A stretch of DNA of 25,532 nucleotides, taken from NCBI GenBank assembly GCA_018398765.1, contig JAHBMJ010001841.1, positions 1 through 25,532 of the forward strand, written 5' to 3'. The stretch comes from Chromera velia (taxonomy: Eukaryota > Sar > Chromeraceae). A program made the position numbers and the translations under genes. Positions within the stretch are counted from its first letter, which is position 1; each line of letters opens with the position of its first letter. Under the pieces are notes generated by a model. The model was not told the origin of the DNA. It was given only the letters and a program-made list of their open reading frames with translations, and did no database searches. Shown one piece after another: positions 1-19,500 of the stretch.

Positions 1-673
1 CTCTCCCCCCCCCCTTCCTCGACAAGATCTCCCTCTCCTCCCCTCCTCTTCCTCCCCTAAGGCTCCCCTTCCTCGATAAGAATCTCCCTAAAGCGAATGA
101 AGGATCGAACGCGTTGACGTCAGCGCCCCCCCCGTAGAGAGAGAGAGAGAACTTGTACTTCTGCGTTCACTTTGACCCGGCCTCTGCATGGCTCGATCGA
201 TACTCTCCCTCCCCCCCCTCCTTCAAGTCGGACTGGACCCTTGCGCCTCTCCCCCTTCCCTCATCTCGAGACAAATGACACAAGAACGAACGCCTTCCTA
301 GCCCGTAGGGGGAAGAACGCGGCTCAAAACACAAGCGCGTATGCAGTTGCACCACACAAACCCAACAGTCTCTCCCTTGACATAGACTTCATGTGTGTAC
401 GGAGTTCGAGCCCACTGGGATGCGACCAATTTGGAAAAAAAGAGCGACAGAAAAAGGAATGAACTCACTGGATAAACAACCGAGGAGAAGTCGCAGAAAA
501 GAGTAGAGACAGCCTACTTTTACTCCTCCAGTGTCTTACACATGAATTGAAATCGACGTTTCTCACCCTTCTGTGCAAGGAGAACTTCATACACGCAGCA
601 AGTCGACCTGACATGTCTGTCATCGGGCCTTGCCTGAAATGCCCCCAGTGCACAATGGTGAAATCAAATGAAA
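1..673. other. Left-edge region, no supported gene
   Basis: No coding exon can be supported here. It presumably holds the 3' untranslated and downstream sequence of the minus-strand acidic-protein gene. Positions 14-36 and 68-90 carry an imperfect direct repeat of a CCTTCCTCGA-type pyrimidine-rich unit, which may be the edge of another repetitive exon outside the window. A TGACGTCA palindrome lies at 115-122 and a short GA run at 138-150. Short open frames on both strands show no recognisable domain. Confidence 0.4.
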
Positions 674-2324
674 TCAAGCTGCTAGGAAGCAATTGTGAAT
701 AAAATGAGTAGGCAACGAACGATCAAACATGCAGGTTGTTGGTTTCTTATCGACAGACAGACAGACTGACATGCGCTGGTCGGACACCTTTTGGTTGGAA
801 GTTTTTGCTCTCTTTTTTCCCGTTTTCGATTCCTGAGAGAAGAGAGGAGGCAGTCCAGACAAAACGTGAAAAGCATTTGTCATTTGGGTATGTTCACACA
901 ACCCTATATCGATGAAAAAAGAGACCGAATACTTTTCGAACAACACTGTCAGGCAACAAGGGCTCTCTCTACATGTACAAGAGGATTTTGTGAGACGAAA
1001 GGACGGAAGTCAAGGCGTTGTGCATGAGGACAAACATCGATCAGGCAAGTCTATCACTGCATGACAGGCCGGCGAACGAACAAAAAATGACCGAAAGACC
1101 AAGCATGCATGCATGGAGGCAGGCAGGCAGGCAGGCATATGCACAAGAAACCGTCGCTGCACAAATGAACGGACGAACTCAATCTAGCTAGCTCACCTGG
1201 TCGGACTCCGAGTCGCTGGAGGCCCCCTCTGCACTGTTGCCAATGGCTGAGTGCGTGTGGCTGCCGAGGAGAGAAAAGCGGCGTTCTGTGAAGAGAGAGA
1301 GAGAGGGAAGCGCGCTACCTGTGACGATCTCCCTCTGTCCCAATCTGACGCTCCCTTCCTCCTCCTCTTCCCCTTCTTCCTGTCCCAACCTGACGAGAAA
1401 GTCAACCCCCCCTGCGGACATGCACACACGCATGCAGGTCACTGGTCAGATACACACAGCCAAGACTGACGCTACTGACACACATGCAGGAAGCCTGTCC
1501 GATCTTCTCCCCGAAACAACTTTTTCTCTCAATTGACCTACAAAATCATTGAGGTTCGAGCCCCCCCTTTGCTCTTTCTTTCGGTCAGAGAAGACGGGGA
1601 CGGAAGAGAAGCGGCGGGGGAAGATGAAAGAGAAGAAAATCACATCCAGACCACTAACCTGCACTCTTGGGTTTGGGCTTTTCTTCAACGGCTTTGGCAG
1701 TCGGCGCGGTCTTTTTTTCTGTTCCTGAAAAGGCCGTGCTGTTGGTCTCAACTTCCGTCTCTTTTGCTGGAGAGCCCGTGTCCTGCTTGTCCTCCTCTAC
1801 GCCTGCGCCTTCGGCAAGCGAAGTTATTTCCTTCACCTCAACCACCGTTTCATTTCCAGAAGAAATCGTCAGATTTGTCTTTGAGGCCCTCTCTTCTTCT
1901 TTTTCTAATGACATCCTTTTGTCCTCTTCTCCTCCTGCTCCTGCTTCTGCGGGAGGAAGCGTGGTGTTCTTCTTTTCGTCTGAAGGGGCGTTGCTCCCTT
2001 CCTCCTTCTCTCCCTCTTCTTCCTGTCCCAACCCGACGCTCCCTTCCTCCTCCTCTTCCTCTTCTTCCTGTCCCAACCTGACGCTCCCTTCCTCCTTCTC
2101 TTCCCCTTCTTCATGTCCCAACCTGACGCTCCCTTCCTCCTCCTCTTCCTCTTCTTCCTGTCCCAACTCCACACCGTCGTCCTCTCCCTCCTCTCCACCC
2201 CCCCAACCGTCGAAGGGGGGGGGGGTCTATGGGAATGGGAATATGGCCATGGTGCTCTTGATCATCGTGCCATCTGGGCCTTGATCTGCGCAAACCTTTT
2301 CCACGACGAATATAGGGGCTTTTC
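674..2324 (-). CDS. Acidic Glu-rich repeat protein, multi-exon, 5' end unresolved
   Basis: I do not recognise the family. The minus-strand model has exons 2226-1659, 1411-1197 and 832-674, with a tentative 29-nt exon at 2324-2296 upstream. Donors are GTTAGT after 1659 and GTGAGC after 1197. Acceptors are GTCCGCAG before 1411 and a pyrimidine-rich CTCAG before 832. Phases agree: the first junction splits a Gly codon, the second falls between codons. The first large exon starts with four 15-residue acidic repeats (EEGSVRLGQEEEEEE type), then a Lys/Glu/Thr/Ser-rich stretch ending KPKPKSAG. The next exon carries one more repeat and ends SDSESDQ. The last exon has a basic, NLS-like KTGKKRAK followed by 40 ordinary residues and TGA. 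An intrinsically disordered, possibly nuclear protein is a reasonable guess. No start codon lies in frame upstream of the repeats, so at least one 5' exon is missing from the model. Confidence 0.5.
1338..1394 (-). repeat. Detached copy of the 45-bp coding repeat
   Basis: Positions 1350-1394 match the 45-bp unit at 1993-2172, and 1338-1349 begin another copy. Translated on the minus strand this gives VRLGQEEGEEEEEGSVRLGQ in the same frame as the main array, across a predicted intron. That supports this stretch being an exon of the same gene. Confidence 0.8.
1993..2172 (-). repeat. 45-bp tandem repeat, four copies, coding
   Basis: Copies start at 1993, 2038, 2083 and 2128, an exact 45-bp period. 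On the minus strand each unit encodes 15 acidic residues around the core GSVRLGQ. The copies differ at a few positions, mostly Glu-codon interruptions giving Gly or Lys. A fifth copy lies at 1350-1394 in the next exon, with the start of a sixth at 1338-1349. Confidence 0.9.
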
Positions 2325-3551
2325 CTGCAAAAATGAACAACACCGACAAGGAAGCCCACGTAAAAGCAGTAAGCAAGAAAGCAATGAAGGTTTCCAAACT
2401 CATGTGACAAGTGTGCCTCGAGAATGCTGAGTTCCTGCATGGATGCTTTGTTCAAAGCCGAAACAACAGCCTGCAGTAAAGCTAGTTGCTCGGAACTTGC
2501 TCCTCAAATGCAACCCACTGCAAGTGCGCATCAATGTTTTCAGATCTGACTACATGCATGAGCGATTGTGGAAACCGATCTGTTTGCATGGCCGGCGACG
2601 TTTGATGTCCAGCAAGACAATGAGCTTGCCTTCAGATCAGGAAACAAGACATGTGGATTTACAAGATTCAGACTGAAGAGAAAGGTGCACGTGGATAGCA
2701 GCTAGTGGAAGCTTGCTCAACGGCACGCAAGCAGACGCGAAAGACATGCGAAGGACGGACCGATGATTCTCCATCTTTCTACTTGCTCGTGCAGAACGCT
2801 CTCGGAGGCCTTTGATGAGGCAAAAAACGTTCGGGAAGAGTCAAAGTAGACAAACAAAGAAGATCATGGAGTCATGTTGGTTCAGTGGAGCTTCTGCCCG
2901 TACTTTTCTTCTTTTCCATGTCACAGAGAAACTGGCTTCTGACGGAAAACATCCAACTGTTGGAACCCCAACAACGCGCCAGAGCGGTTTCGCGTAGCAA
3001 TTCTTTGGGTCCATTCATGGTCCATTCTTGGTTGAAGGCCAAATGCTCTTTTTAGTGTTGCGCTGATGTCCATGCATCCAATTGGAGAGGAACATGGCCG
3101 GGTCCGACCAGTATTACGCGGCCCGCGCGGCCCTCCATGCATGCATCGCATATATTCATATATGCGCATTTCTGACTTCAACCCCGGCCCAGCAGTCACC
3201 GCGCGATAAACGATCGATTAGACGACCACTCACTCGGACCAAGCATGGACCAAGCAGCCTCGCTCTCCACCGACACACTGATCACAAGACGCTCACGTGC
3301 AGAGTCAGGTTGATGGACCTGAATGGCAGCTTTGGGTAAGAGCCGTGCTGAAGTCCAGAAGGCGTGCGATGAATTGTCTGTCAATGGCGAAGAGTGAGAC
3401 GGAACTGATGACGGAGGGCGGAGCAACGTCTCGTCTTGATTGCACAATACACACGGAGTATCCCTGAATGAAAAGTACATTTCAATGTCTGGAGCTGTCA
3501 GTACTCAAAAGTAGCCCCGTATATTCTACACAGTACGATAGCTTGTGACTC
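2325..3551. promoter_or_regulatory. Divergent intergenic region between the acidic-protein gene and the kinase gene
   Basis: No supported exon was found. The region should hold the 5' end of the minus-strand gene and the promoter and leader of the plus-strand kinase gene. It has mixed base composition, a GC-rich patch at 3096-3135 next to ATGCATGCATCGCATATAT-type alternating sequence, and only short open frames without domain signals. An in-frame TGA at 3546-3548 sits immediately upstream of the kinase ATG. Confidence 0.4.
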
Positions 3552-7306
<3,755 letters not shown>

Positions 7307-14400: not shown

Positions 14401-15306
14401 TGGAGGATGCCGAACCTTCGACATCTGTCCCTTCGTGACAGCGGTGTCGCGGATGAAGGGATGTGTGCGTTGGGCCAGGCTGCAAGTGAGGGTCGCCTCC
14501 AGAAACTGCAGAGTCTGGATGTAGGGCACAACCCTCTGATCGGAAAGATGGGAATGAAAGGTTTCATGGCAGGCGTATCCGAGGGGGGACTGCCTGGTTT
14601 GAAGGAATTGTCACTGAACCACACGAGGGCAGGGGAGGGGGTTGCCTCGCTGGCAGCTGCCTTGATGGTGGGGAGACTTTCTCGGATTGCCACAGTCGAC
14701 CTAGAATCCTCAGGCGTGAATGCTGAGGGTATCCGTGTGCTGGGCAAGGCAGTGAGAGGTGATCACCTTTCGAAAATCCTGTCCCTGTCTCTTGCATCGA
14801 ACGAAACGGATGAAGAAGGGGTGGAGAGTTTCCTTGGAGACCTAGCAGAGAGTGCGTTGGGGTTTCCATCCCTTCAGAAACTTGATCTGTCCAACATGCC
14901 CATCGGGGGCAAGGGAATCACTCCGCTTGCTGCTGCGATCGCGGCCTCGAAACTGTCGAACATGCAGACGCTCGCACTGCACAGCTGCAGTCTCTCTGAC
15001 CCCGACCTTCGGGTGTTGGGCGGAGCATTCCACGCACATCCCATGCAGAGCCTCCAGATGCTCTCTCTTGAGGGCAACCAGAAGATCGGAGTAGAGGGCC
15101 TCGGTGCGTTCCTTGAGGCCCTCAGTCCGGAGTCTCTCCCCAAACTCCGAATCCTCAATATGGAGTCTGCTGAGAACCTGAACTCGGGGGGGGGCACAGA
15201 CCTGGTCCGGGCGGCGAAGAGCAGCGGGAAGGTGCGCAGTCTGTTTTGGCCTGGGTTGGGGATCGCGGCTGCCGCACCTGCCGTGGTGCCGCCGGCTGCG
15301 GAATGA
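10621..15306 (+). CDS. Ribonuclease-inhibitor-like leucine-rich-repeat protein
   Basis: Eight exons: 10621-10654, 10756-10832, 11247-11318, 11717-11756, 12063-12137, 12309-12461, 12913-12990 and 13223-15306; 870 residues, every junction phase-consistent. After about 60 N-terminal residues (acidic start, then DFLRILLKHGRPSSQ and LTWNPEAFGMAWLVLSSFKK) the protein is LRRs of the RNI type, with units such as LKGLDLSG, VETLIFG, ETLFLDGNPLGRGG and SLQKLDLSNMPIGGKGI. The 2,084-nt last exon carries most repeats without interruption; those around residues 250-380 are irregular. There is no signal peptide, transmembrane segment or catalytic domain, so an intracellular protein-binding scaffold is likely. 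The partner cannot be deduced. Introns 4-7 are all phase 1 and fall at the same LRR position (residues 75, 100, 151, 177). The ATG at 10621 is the best start seen, but an upstream exon is not excluded. TGA is at 15304-15306. Confidence 0.85.
11411..11454 (+). repeat. (GA)n microsatellite in LRR-gene intron 3
   Basis: A purine dinucleotide run, interrupted once by AAA, within intron 11319-11716. Most other intronic runs in this window are pyrimidine or TG on the sense strand, so the orientation is opposite here. Confidence 0.9.
12743..12866 (+). repeat. TTCC/TTCAT tetranucleotide-rich tract in LRR-gene intron 6
   Basis: Degenerate (CTTC)n grading into (CATT)n and (CATC)n, pyrimidine-rich and ending about 45 nt before the ATGCAG acceptor at 12912. 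Confidence 0.85.
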
Positions 15307-15925
15307 ATGAGCAGAAGGAAGGGCTTGTGCATATTGTATTAGGGCAGTGAGTGAGTTCCTGGCGTCCACTGAACGCTAGACTGAACGTCACGGAAGGCTC
15401 GCCCCGTAGTGCGTGCCTTCTCGCTCAGCTTCATTAATTAAAAACGCTTCATCCCTTTAGGAGAAGGGAGATCTGCCACTGCACTGCAGGCAGTCCTCTT
15501 TTCCTCCCTCCTTTCGTTCCTTCCCCCATTCGTTCGTTCTTTCGTTTCCGTTCGTTCCCTCATTCCTTTCTTCTGCCCGCGCAAGACGGATAAAGGTGTG
15601 CACCATCATTCACTTATTGAATTCATCGAGTCGTACATGTAATCATCTTTCTCCGAATCCGTTCGTGTTGTCGATCGACTCTAGCTAGCTGAGGTGGATC
15701 CTCAAATTGAATCTTAATTAATCCATGCCAATGTGTGTGCCAAGACATGCGCTTGATTCATTGTTGAATGTTTTTTCAGACTGTGACTTTTGTCAGACTC
15801 CTGATTGTTTTCAATAATTCACTTTCAACTGTTTGATACACCAATCCTGTAGGGTTGCACAATCACTTTTTTTAAAATGTTTTGTTACACATTTTTCTAT
15901 TAAATAGAATTTTAATGAATGAATT
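15307..15925. other. 3' flank of the LRR gene
   Basis: No gene is seen. The stretch starts with the probable 3' untranslated region, includes a TTCC/TTCG-rich tract at about 15500-15570, and becomes AT-rich from about 15700. No terminator or polyadenylation signal can be assigned with confidence. Confidence 0.4.
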
Positions 15926-15933
15926 AGTACACA

Positions 15934-16542
15934 CTAGGCGACGTACAGTGGTAAAAAAAAAAAAAAAAATAGACCTTTCCAGATTTTTTTTTTTTCTTTT
16001 TTTTTACGAAGGATTTCCTAGAGCACCTCTAGGAGCACCTAGAGGAGCACCTTTTAGAAGTACTTTTAAACTAACTTCCTCGCGAACTTATTACTCAACT
16101 CAAAGTTTTAAACATCTTTCAACCCTAGTTTCAACCCGAGTTCTAGTCCTAGTTGTTATTGTACGTTTGTCTCTATTGGTGTCTCTACTAGTGTCTTCAC
16201 CATTCCATCATCGACTTTGTTGAACACGGACCAACCGATCTTTTTTCCCTTGTTCAACGGCACTATCACCAGACTTTTCTCTCTTCCCTTTGCTGTGTCT
16301 GTTAAAAAAACTAACCATGTCTTCTTGTTTTCCATTCACATTGACTTGCATCCGCCCTTTCTTTCTCGTAAATTCTGCAGTCACTTCAGTATCATCCCTC
16401 TAGATATGATTCAAACTCTAGTTGAAGCTAGTCATTTAACCTTTATTTTTTTTTACATATACAATAAAATTTTAAATAAATAAATAAAAAAGAATAGACG
16501 TTTTCAGATTTTGATTTTTTTTTACTACTGTGCATCGCCTAG
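15934..16542. mobile_element. MITE-like element 1, 609 bp, CTAGGCG termini
   Basis: The left terminus CTAGGCGACGTACAGTGGT followed by poly-A is mirrored at the right end (16515-16542). The reverse complement there matches 25 of 28 positions, and the three differences are all transitions. A perfect 8-bp direct repeat, AGTACACA, flanks the element at 15926-15933 and 16543-16550, as expected for a target-site duplication. Just inside each end is a similar ATAGAC...CAGATTTT motif in direct orientation (about 15969 and 16493). No transposase is encoded; the 88-codon frame at 16217-16483 has no recognisable domain. An 8-bp duplication is typical of hAT-like and some other DNA transposons, so it is probably a non-autonomous element moved in trans. 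Confidence 0.8.
16026..16045. repeat. Perfect short palindrome in element 1
   Basis: CCTCTAGG and CCTAGAGG, separated by AGCA, form an 8-bp perfect stem with a 4-nt loop. It sits in a run of GAGCACC-type repeats about 90 bp inside the left end of the element. Confidence 0.8.
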
Positions 16543-16547
16543 AGTAC

Positions 16548-16680
16548 ACACTTTAGTGTGCAGTAATTGAAACTATCACTTTTAGGAATGCATTAAATAC
16601 GCACTTTAGTGTGCATTAATTCAAACTATCGATCACTTTTAGGAATGCATTATTATACACTTTAGTGTGTATTAATTCCA
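16548..16680. repeat. Tandem 53-56-bp repeats with a palindromic core
   Basis: Three copies of a unit starting ACACTTTAGTGTG or GCACTTTAGTGTG begin at 16548, 16601 and 16657. Each core is a hairpin (CACACT/AGTGTG) followed by AATT, AACTATC and ACTTTTAGGAATGCATTA. Element 1 inserted directly at the edge of the first core. Removing the element and one target duplication restores a nearly perfect palindrome of about 30 bp. Confidence 0.8.
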
Positions 16681-17739
16681 TGTTTTATCTTCGTCTTCTT
16701 CTTCTTGTTCAGGACGGTTTGAGAGTACTGCTTTTAGAGCAATGGTGTCATCAGTAACACGACAGAGAGAACTTTTGAGCACTGGAGGTAAGGGTAAAAA
16801 GAGCAGAGACGGGAGCAGGGAGGGTGCCATGAGAGAAACGGTGGATTTGTCTAGAATTATTGCATACTAATTGTTACACACTTTTATGTGTAATAAGGGG
16901 GGGGTTCAGGAGTAATTGACACTACTAATTATTATACATTTAACTTTGTGTAACACACTAAGATTGGTGTACTGTTTGAAATATAACTAGAAATATAATC
17001 ATCTAAGCGCATACGTGTCATGCATGATACGTCAATGACATTCAATGCGTCATAATTTAAAATGCGCCTAGAAATTCGCTAATTAAAATTTAAGTCTAAG
17101 ATTTGAGTAAATTGAATTTTATTGCATGTAAGTTACAATTTTAAGATCAATTATTATTAACTACTAGTAAGTTGAACTAGAAGTTAAACTAAGTATAGCG
17201 AAAAGCAGTTACGGTTCTATTGTTCTAATTTGAACTTCCCTAGGCGCCGCACATAAAAAAAAAGAATAAAAAAATTAGGCGTCCTCAACTTTTTTTTTTC
17301 TGTTTTCTTTTTTTTTAGGTCAAAAGTTAGGTTCATATTTTGTGTGGAAAAGTAAGTTTCAGAGTTGAAAATGACTCTTTTCCTTTTGGAAGCACTTAAA
17401 ATAAAAAAATAAAAAAAAATAAAAAAGAAATTAGGCCTTCCCAACTTTTTTTTTCTATGTGCGACGCTTAGGAACTTCCAACTAAAATTTAAGATAAAGG
17501 TTTGCCGAAAATTTAGTTAAAAATCTAGCTAGGTAAAAATTTTATTTATGATGTGCATGTTGCCAGCTAGGTTGCCAGTGTGGTTATCATTCATGTATTA
17601 TGTATATGGACATTCCTCTTGTGATATGAATTGTCATGACATATCGCTTTTTAATTCAAAATAATGCCTAGAATAATGACAAAATTTGATTGAACTGTTA
17701 ACATTCACCAATGCATCAATATCAGTGACAGTGTCAGAC
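16681..17739. other. Rest of AT-rich island 2
   Basis: Apart from element 2 this stretch holds AT-rich sequence without genes. It includes further hairpin-like ACACTTTTATGTGT (about 16877) and a possible decayed mini-element at 17003-17070, where CTAAGCGCAT and ATGCGCCTAG are near inverse. No target duplication was found for the latter. Confidence 0.45.
17240..17471. mobile_element. MITE-like element 2, 232 bp, related to element 1
   Basis: The left terminus CTAGGCGCCGCACATA plus poly-A is mirrored at the right end (reverse complement CTAAGCGTCGCACATAG plus poly-A), with three transition differences over about 25 bp. A perfect 8-bp duplication, GAACTTCC, flanks it at 17232-17239 and 17472-17479. 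Like element 1 it has a direct repeat just inside each end: AAATTAGGC...CAAC followed by poly-T, at 17272-17301 and 17428-17456. The shared CTAGGCG start, duplication length and A/T-tract layout make the two elements one family. No open frame of note. Confidence 0.8.
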
Positions 17740-19500
17740 TTATCGCTGCTTTCTGAGAGCCCGGCGTGGATCGACAGTGAATGAAAAAAACGGAAGGCTG
17801 GCCGCTCCACTCGCAGCCCCCTCGCCCTCCTCCTCCCTTTCCATCTCGCTCACGCCCCCCGGAGCCCGATTCGGACTCCCTGGAGATCCCCTGTCTTCTT
17901 CTGTCTCTGCCGGGATTCTCGATGGGGGCTGTGGGGAGGGAGCGGGGCTCCCTTCGGGCTTCTTGCCCCCCCTGTGGAAGTGTGTCAGCGACAGAACAGG
18001 CAACGAGGGGGACCCTGAGGCCCCCGTGTCGGCAGACACCACAGGAGCGGCACCGTTGCCATTGCGGGCCCCTGGGGCCCCGGCATCCTCTGCTCCCTGC
18101 TCACTAACCGCTGCCCTCTCCTGCGCCCTCCTTGCCTGATTGCCATGAATGTCTGGCACTGCTCGCGCTGCGGCTGCACCATCTCCGCACACCAAAGTCT
18201 CCGTCCGCGTGTCAAACCAGAGAACACAGAGGTGTCTCTGTTCTGCACGGAGACGGGAGAAGGCAGGATCATCGTCTTCGTCTTTCATAGCGTACAGCTT
18301 CAAGGGCTCTGAGCGCGTCTGGATGCTCGGCTGACTCGCCGGACCCTTCACCCCTCCTTCTCCTCCCCCTCCTGCTGCCGCTGCTGCTGTTGTCTTCTCC
18401 TTCTCTACAGACAGGTGCAGAGCTACTGACGCGACGCACGCCGCTGCATCGAAAGACGCAAAAATGACCGGGGGAGATGACTTTGTGTCGATCGTCGCGG
18501 AGATGCAACGATGTGATTCCCGCAGCTGCGGGAGCCAGGAACGGATTTGCCACCTCAGAACGAGGGATCCATCCTTCATGTCCCACACACAAAGGGCTCG
18601 GGATGTCATGGCAACTGCGGCTGGGTTTTTGCCCCCTGCAACAGGGAGCACAGCAGCCGCTCGGACTGACTCCGCAGCCCCGTGGAACTCTTTAAGGCAC
18701 TTACCTGATTGGAGGCTGTAGAGCCGTAGAGGGAGGGAAACATCCTCCTGCCCTGTCCCCGGACTGCCCGCAGCTGAAGGGGTGCAGTGCCCCACAAGCA
18801 GCTGCCCTTTCGCTTCGTAGAATGCGATGCAGCTGACAGGAAAATCGGAAGGGGTCGAAATGGAGGGAATGGTGCCAGCCGTTTTCTCTTTATGCTCACT
18901 CTCACTGGCCTCCACCTTTGCCCCGCTTCCCCCGTTACTTGAGGCCCCCGTGCTCGGAGGTGCCTGCACGGTCGGCCTCGGCGGTTTGTACGTCCCTGCA
19001 AGTTCCCCTGTCTCCAAAAAATAAGAGACCAGAGAACCGTCGGCCAACCCCACAACCAGGGCGTTGTTCATCGGACAGGACACGGCGGTGGGCATGTCCG
19101 AATCGTCCGCTAGTTTGATCTGCTTCATCGGTTTGAGTCGTGTGGAGTCAAAAACACGGACCATGAGGTCAGAGCAGACAGCAATGACACAACTGCCAAT
19201 AGAGCACGAAGGGTTGAATGTGCAGCAGAGGGTGCGTGCCTTTGGGGAGCTTCCCGGCTGGAGAAGGCTCATCACCGTCGCGTTGTCACGCGATAGGTTG
19301 CTGTTCACAAACGCCCTCCCTCCTGTCTTCGCACTGAAATTCTCTATGGCATCGTCTGTGACAACGATGATCCCCGAGGATGCGCCCTGACTGGCGTCAA
19401 AGAAAGTGCCCACACAAGCAGGCCGGGAAGGAAGGGGGGTGCTCGCCTTCCCGTACACGATACTGACCGGTCGGACAACCTGCACTCCAGTGTTGCCCAT
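17740..19500 (-). CDS. WD40-like beta-propeller protein, single exon
   Basis: One uninterrupted frame of 586 residues, ATG at 19500-19498 and TAA at 17742-17740. The repeat units are WD40-like: CVIAVCSDLMVRVFD (104-118), ALVVGLADGSLVSYFLETGE (147-166), VSCIAFYEAKGQLLVGH (222-238), LRLYSLQSGKCLKEFHGA (259-276) and ALCVWDMKDGSLVLRW (302-317). Degenerate units flank them (about 25-60 and 395-440). Low-complexity Ser/Gly/Pro linkers occur at 172-218 and 366-395. The C-terminal third (about 445-570) is disordered and Pro/Ala/Glu-rich, ending with the basic tail DPRRALRKQR. No catalytic domain, signal peptide or membrane segment. A scaffold role is likely; the orthologue cannot be named. It is the only multi-hundred-residue gene here without introns. 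It is divergent from the SmB gene, with about 735 bp between the two starts. Confidence 0.8.
   Translation of the reverse strand: MGNTGVQVVRPVSIVYGKASTPLPSRPACVGTFFDASQGASSGIIVVTDDAIENFSAKTGGRAFVNSNLSRDNATVMSLLQPGSSPKARTLCCTFNPSCSIGSCVIAVCSDLMVRVFDSTRLKPMKQIKLADDSDMPTAVSCPMNNALVVGLADGSLVSYFLETGELAGTYKPPRPTVQAPPSTGASSNGGSGAKVEASESEHKEKTAGTIPSISTPSDFPVSCIAFYEAKGQLLVGHCTPSAAGSPGTGQEDVSLPLRLYSLQSGKCLKEFHGAAESVRAAAVLPVAGGKNPAAVAMTSRALCVWDMKDGSLVLRWQIRSWLPQLRESHRCISATIDTKSSPPVIFASFDAAACVASVALHLSVEKEKTTAAAAAGGGGEGGVKGPASQPSIQTRSEPLKLYAMKDEDDDPAFSRLRAEQRHLCVLWFDTRTETLVCGDGAAAARAVPDIHGNQARRAQERAAVSEQGAEDAGAPGARNGNGAAPVVSADTGASGSPSLPVLSLTHFHRGGKKPEGSPAPSPQPPSRIPAETEEDRGSPGSPNRAPGGVSEMEREEEGEGAASGAASLPFFSFTVDPRRALRKQR

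Follow-up and report, generated by a model that had tools for sequence, protein, structure and literature searches.

Two multi-copy families of probable non-autonomous DNA transposons with related CTAGGC-type ends in the Chromera velia genome

Two short elements lie close together on contig JAHBMJ010001841.1 of Chromera velia (assembly GCA_018398765.1), each bounded by inverted CTAGGCG-type termini and each flanked by a duplicated 8-bp sequence, and they raise the question of what kind of element they are, how many relatives they have and what moves them. The window referred to below is the whole stretch analysed, 25,532 nucleotides in length. An original prediction made from these letters had treated the two as one family of miniature inverted-repeat transposable elements (MITEs) with two members. 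Our analysis makes it very probable that each belongs to a separate family of non-autonomous terminal-inverted-repeat DNA transposons, that the two families have related ends and that the elements were presumably moved in trans; they are new families of an already known kind. The published assembly of the species, as described in PMC4501334, comprises 193.6 Mb in 5953 scaffolds, with approximately 30 Mb of transposable elements. In the literature searched we found no description of these elements, though an earlier annotation may exist in the supplementary table of transposable elements of PMC4501334.

Anatomy of the window elements

Both elements, here called A (15934-16542) and B (17240-17471), lie in the window where they had been predicted, each with inverted ends and flanked by an 8-bp duplication without mismatch. 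The features are as follows.

15837..16971, plus strand: older element enclosing A, with ends TACACCAATC and 8-bp duplication CTGTTTGA (window scan; relative in locus L066)
15926..15933, no strand: left 8-bp target duplication of A, AGTACACA (window; single copy in the L066 empty site)
15934..16542, plus strand: family A element, an internally deleted copy of 609 bp (window sequence; relatives in the genome)
15970..15992, plus strand: left copy of the A subterminal direct repeat, core and T-tract (by eye; seen in relatives)
16211..16399, minus strand: open-frame remnant in A, 63 aa, longer in longer family A copies
16398..16400, no strand: internal deletion junction of A, equal to positions 459/2398 of the 2539-bp L076 copy and common to L003
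16495..16512, plus strand: right copy of the A subterminal direct repeat, core (by eye; seen in relatives)
16543..16550, no strand: right 8-bp target duplication of A, AGTACACA (window sequence)
17232..17239, no strand: left 8-bp target duplication of B, GAACTTCC (window sequence)
17240..17471, plus strand: family B element, 232 bp (window sequence; relatives in the genome)
17253..17298, plus strand: left copy of the B subterminal direct repeat, 46 nt (self-comparison)
17409..17454, plus strand: right copy of the B subterminal direct repeat, 46 nt (self-comparison)
17472..17479, no strand: right 8-bp target duplication of B, GAACTTCC (window sequence)

On either side of the pair lie a leucine-rich-repeat frame on the plus strand (ending at 15306) and a minus-strand frame (ending at 17740). 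As had been noted at the outset, the paired ends differ by transitions only; across their first 22-24 bases there are three such changes in A and three in B. The predicted subterminal direct repeat is likewise present in both elements, built as an A-tract, a short core and a T-tract. In B its two copies are 87% identical over 46 nt, and in A it reads by eye as TAGAC[C/G]TTT[C/T]CAGATTT at 15970 and at 16495, with the match between left and right ends visible in most of the 25 family A copies compared.

The arrangement had been judged unlikely by chance. When the window was scanned de novo for 8-bp duplications next to 14-nt inverted ends (three mismatches or fewer, spacing 150-1500 bp), there were three hits, namely A, B and the outer element at 15837-16971; 100 first-order Markov sequences taken together also gave three. 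A 33-nt repeat in three imperfect copies, spaced 53-56 bp apart, also occurs at 16545-16686 of the window, within the older element.

Copy number in the genome

The assembly from which the window comes (177,833,721 bases, or 177.8 Mb, in 4040 contigs) was searched with whole elements and with their ends. Whole-element searches gave at least 111 matches for A (best 40 of 436 candidates scored) and at least 75 for B (best 40 of 202 candidates scored). The A end (23 nt, at most three mismatches) occurs 392 + 386 = 778 times and the B end (21 nt, at most two mismatches) 110 + 113 = 223 times, with reversed controls of 0 + 0 in both cases. A third end type, CTAGGCTCCCCATA, occurs 108 + 111 = 219 times (reversed control 1 + 0) and defines a family, here C, of which one copy was checked for its duplication: a 594-bp element at L047 10-603 with CTAGGCTCCCCATA ends and the duplication CACTTTAA. 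Long end pairs are also present in contigs C971 (approximately 22203-26785, with five perfect A ends), C1006 (13555-17620) and C34 (32085-34140, B ends separated by 2056 bp). Another candidate family, with ends of CTAGGCGNCGYACA followed by A or C, was set aside; its 28 sites (control 3) can mostly be explained as single changes of the A end.

A and B have approximately 14 bp of terminus in common (CTAGGCG[A/C]CGCACA). Alignment of their interiors is limited to short stretches at the ends or rich in A/T, and we therefore regard them as separate families with related ends. The idea of a two-member family was therefore wrong: the window holds one copy of each of two multi-copy families, and the third has ends of its own. 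The search for further paired copies that the prediction had called for found many, most of the sampled pairs having 8-bp duplications.

Target duplications and empty sites

For a pairing test that disregarded the flanks, the nearest convergent end pairs were taken from the retrieved loci, giving 58 pairs in the copies most like the queries. A perfect 8-bp duplication flanks 38 of these and an 8-bp duplication with one mismatch another seven; two have perfect 9-bp duplications (L006, L031), and 11 have none that is clear, owing in three cases (L037, L054, L090) to the pairing of an inner end. No pair in the 58 matched at a flank length of 5-7 or 10-12, and when left flanks were combined at random with right flanks, 20,000 such combinations included no perfect match, while 0.06% had one mismatch. 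The duplicated sequence itself varies from copy to copy in this sample.

Empty sites point the same way. The window copy of A sits within the older repeat at 15837-16971, and a relative of that repeat in L066, 83% identical over the first 374 positions, runs ungapped across the join with a single AGTACACA, that is, an empty site. When the flanks of 49 sites were joined and searched for, a join-spanning match was obtained for seven. For four of the 49 (window A, L003, L037 and L043) it lay at a different locus, the L043 site being inside another A copy. The three matches confined to the locus of the site itself, of which L023 has two and L035 one, were left uncounted, and the window A alignment is the one that was inspected base by base. 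The other 42 of the 49 joined flanks, the window B site among them, gave no join-spanning match. The relative of the older element in L066 carries a duplication of its own (GACATGAT/GACGTGAT), and another piece of that element is found in L012.

The genome-wide ends with their control counts of zero, the duplications and the empty sites together back the predicted assignment of A and B to non-autonomous DNA transposons that duplicate 8 bp of target.

Sequence decay

It had been suggested that the differences between paired termini reflect C-to-T decay. This holds in the 465-bp left part of A, where the mean divergence of 40 distinct copies from the majority base is 2.9%. Transitions number 467 and transversions 71; of these 538 changes, 421 are C to T or G to A, and CpG bases have changed approximately five times as often as others (0.1295 versus 0.0239). 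These changes fit decay at putatively methylated cytosines. In the right part of A (55 copies) the pattern is not clear, with 104 transitions against 103 transversions, because of the A and T tracts there, and it is weaker in B, where nine copies show 56 transitions and 29 transversions.

Family A as a series of internal deletions

In clear family A copies that are free of large insertions, the distance between the ends runs from 433 to 2539 bp; in L023, a copy of 240 bp combines A-type ends with an unmatched middle. When copies are mapped on the 2539-bp L076 copy, the main internal deletion exceeds 100 bp in 43 of them, and these deletions fall on 35 distinct junctions when junctions within 8 bp of each other are counted as one (several of these copies are also rearranged or interrupted elsewhere). 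Coverage of L076 falls from 45 copies at both ends to one at approximately 1017-1073, which L076 alone spans, so that L076 may itself carry a deletion and the ancestor may have been longer. Family A is largely derived by internal deletion from a parent element not shorter than 2.5 kb, most sampled copies having a deletion of their own.

The commonest single junction has five members, and the window copy has the same junction as L003 although their target duplications differ; a few deletion forms have multiplied. Most of the deletions probably arose during movement and not afterwards.

The longer copies contain two divergent open frames, one per strand, and the minus-strand frame, of which 63 aa remain in the window copy, reaches up to 224 aa in L023. 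The A frames that were compared with Pfam gave no transposase domain and nothing over cut-off, with one match below it (SBE2_N), the longest ancestor being possibly incomplete. The plus-strand frame had no PDB match at E 0.1.

Search for a transposase

A transposase gene bounded by CTAGGCG termini, which the original prediction had proposed to look for, was not found among the retrieved loci. Two long candidates were examined and rejected. In L089, 4753 bp lie between perfect CTAGGCG ends with the duplication TTTTCAGC; the open frame inside, taken at first for that of an autonomous partner, proved to belong to a nested element (411-4541) with ends TAGTGACT/TAGTCACT, its own duplication CGTACAAT and long internal inverted repeats. 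Against PDB the sole matches of this frame up to E 1 were four Hermes/hAT entries at E 0.08-0.11, against Pfam it had no match, and we otherwise take it to be hAT-like from its motifs. L090 has 6617 bp between perfect ends; here an A copy has received a long foreign insert containing gag- and integrase-like frames, for which Pfam support was weak (rve at E 0.01, which does not reach the cut-off). Inserts in or next to A copies, at L090 130-5754 and L068 5282-8425, have frames resembling gag, integrase and retroelement sequences, with weak Pfam support.

The likeliest single choice of superfamily for the enzyme that mobilises A and B is hAT, which we put forward tentatively, at somewhat short of an even balance. 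The length of the duplications, perfect at 8 bp in 38 of 58 pairs and with one mismatch in seven, is compatible with this part of the original prediction. In the genome the hAT dimerisation domain has seven hits over cut-off, and the hAT-like frame of L089 is multi-copy, with at least 119 matches among those scored of 432 candidates. Against it, the hAT target preference is nTnnnnAn, and T at position 2 together with A at position 7 is found in two of the 38 duplications where 3.5 would be expected; the hAT end consensus is YARNG, which the CTAGG of the A and B ends does not fit in any shift (by eye). The flanks of the seven dimerisation-domain loci, up to 1.5 kb, hold no CTAGGCG-like end (three mismatches of 14), and the L089 frame is part of an element with other ends; no hAT gene bounded by CTAGGCG ends was found in these loci. 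In favour of hAT, subterminal repeats like those of A and B occur also in hAT elements such as Hermes (PMC10368747). In L065 (981-2566) a hAT dimerisation domain lies between ends CATAGTTGC with the duplication AATTAAGG.

A transposase of the Merlin (IS1595-type) superfamily is an unlikely alternative source of the movement. The Merlin domain has 19 hits in the genome, 18 of them over cut-off and several in open frames of 300-390 aa, and Merlin duplications are 8 or 9 bp according to PMC8101967, where our sample has 38 of 8 bp and two of 9 bp. The same paper gives Merlin ends as starting with 5'-GG, however, and the A and B ends start with CTAGG. Nor was linkage seen: among the ends listed, up to 100 places of each kind, no Merlin hit shares a contig with a B end, and the one contig with both a Merlin hit and a listed third-family end (C3527) has them approximately 16 kb apart. 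For the A ends this comparison took in 100 of 778 places, so that family A is hardly covered by it. Contigs with the Merlin domain include C4019, C525, C3817 and C1641.

Other or undescribed superfamilies take the probability that hAT and Merlin leave. A KDZ (Kyakuja-Dileera-Zisupton) model had no genome hits and was also silent in 14 of 14 control genomes, which makes it uninformative. In one more specific version, which we consider rather less likely than even a Merlin source, the CTAGGC ends would mark a group of transposons that duplicate 8 bp of target and use a transposase outside all described superfamilies, encoded in the centre of family A that is missing from nearly all sampled copies; the two divergent A frames, which have no Pfam match over cut-off, would then be the remains or companions of this transposase.

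That the pairing of ends in A and B is a coincidence or an A/T-rich artefact deserves next to no weight: the A and T tracts do lower the complexity of part of the ends, but it is refuted by end counts with zero controls, by duplications that differ from copy to copy and by the empty sites.

Proposed mechanism and significance

For non-autonomous elements moved in trans, cut-and-paste movement is the mechanism that we propose. A transposase supplied from elsewhere would recognise the CTAGGC-type ends, perhaps together with the subterminal repeats of A-tract, core and T-tract, and the element would be inserted across an 8-bp staggered cut. In family A, an ancestor of at least 2.5 kb would have given rise to internal deletions, of which a few forms would then have multiplied.

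The elements document abundant, fairly young non-autonomous DNA transposons with a common CTAGGC end; the literature searched seems to say little about the DNA transposons of this genome. For most readers this is an ordinary, well-founded annotation; family A stands out as mostly a set of different internal deletions, and the missing transposase poses a concrete, testable question.

Comparison with known systems

Families B and C resemble ordinary MITEs as generally understood, being short, A/T-rich and of high copy number, with terminal inverted repeats and duplications and without a transposase (for C, as judged from one copy). Family A is unlike them in its heterogeneity, with 35 deletion junctions in 43 sampled copies.

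The maize Ac/Ds system differs in that its autonomous hAT gene is known, whereas none was found here among the retrieved loci, and the ends and target preference of the Chromera elements depart from the hAT consensus. In maize, according to PMC3260210, the hAT system includes non-autonomous Ds-del elements that arose by internal deletion and Ds-like elements that are alike at their ends alone; short inverted ends in common, 8-bp duplications and one class formed by internal deletion are found in both systems. The Merlin elements described in PMC8101967 have ends that begin GG, unlike the CTAGG ends of A and B, and resemble them in having duplications of 8 or 9 bp, with a Merlin-type domain present in the same genome.
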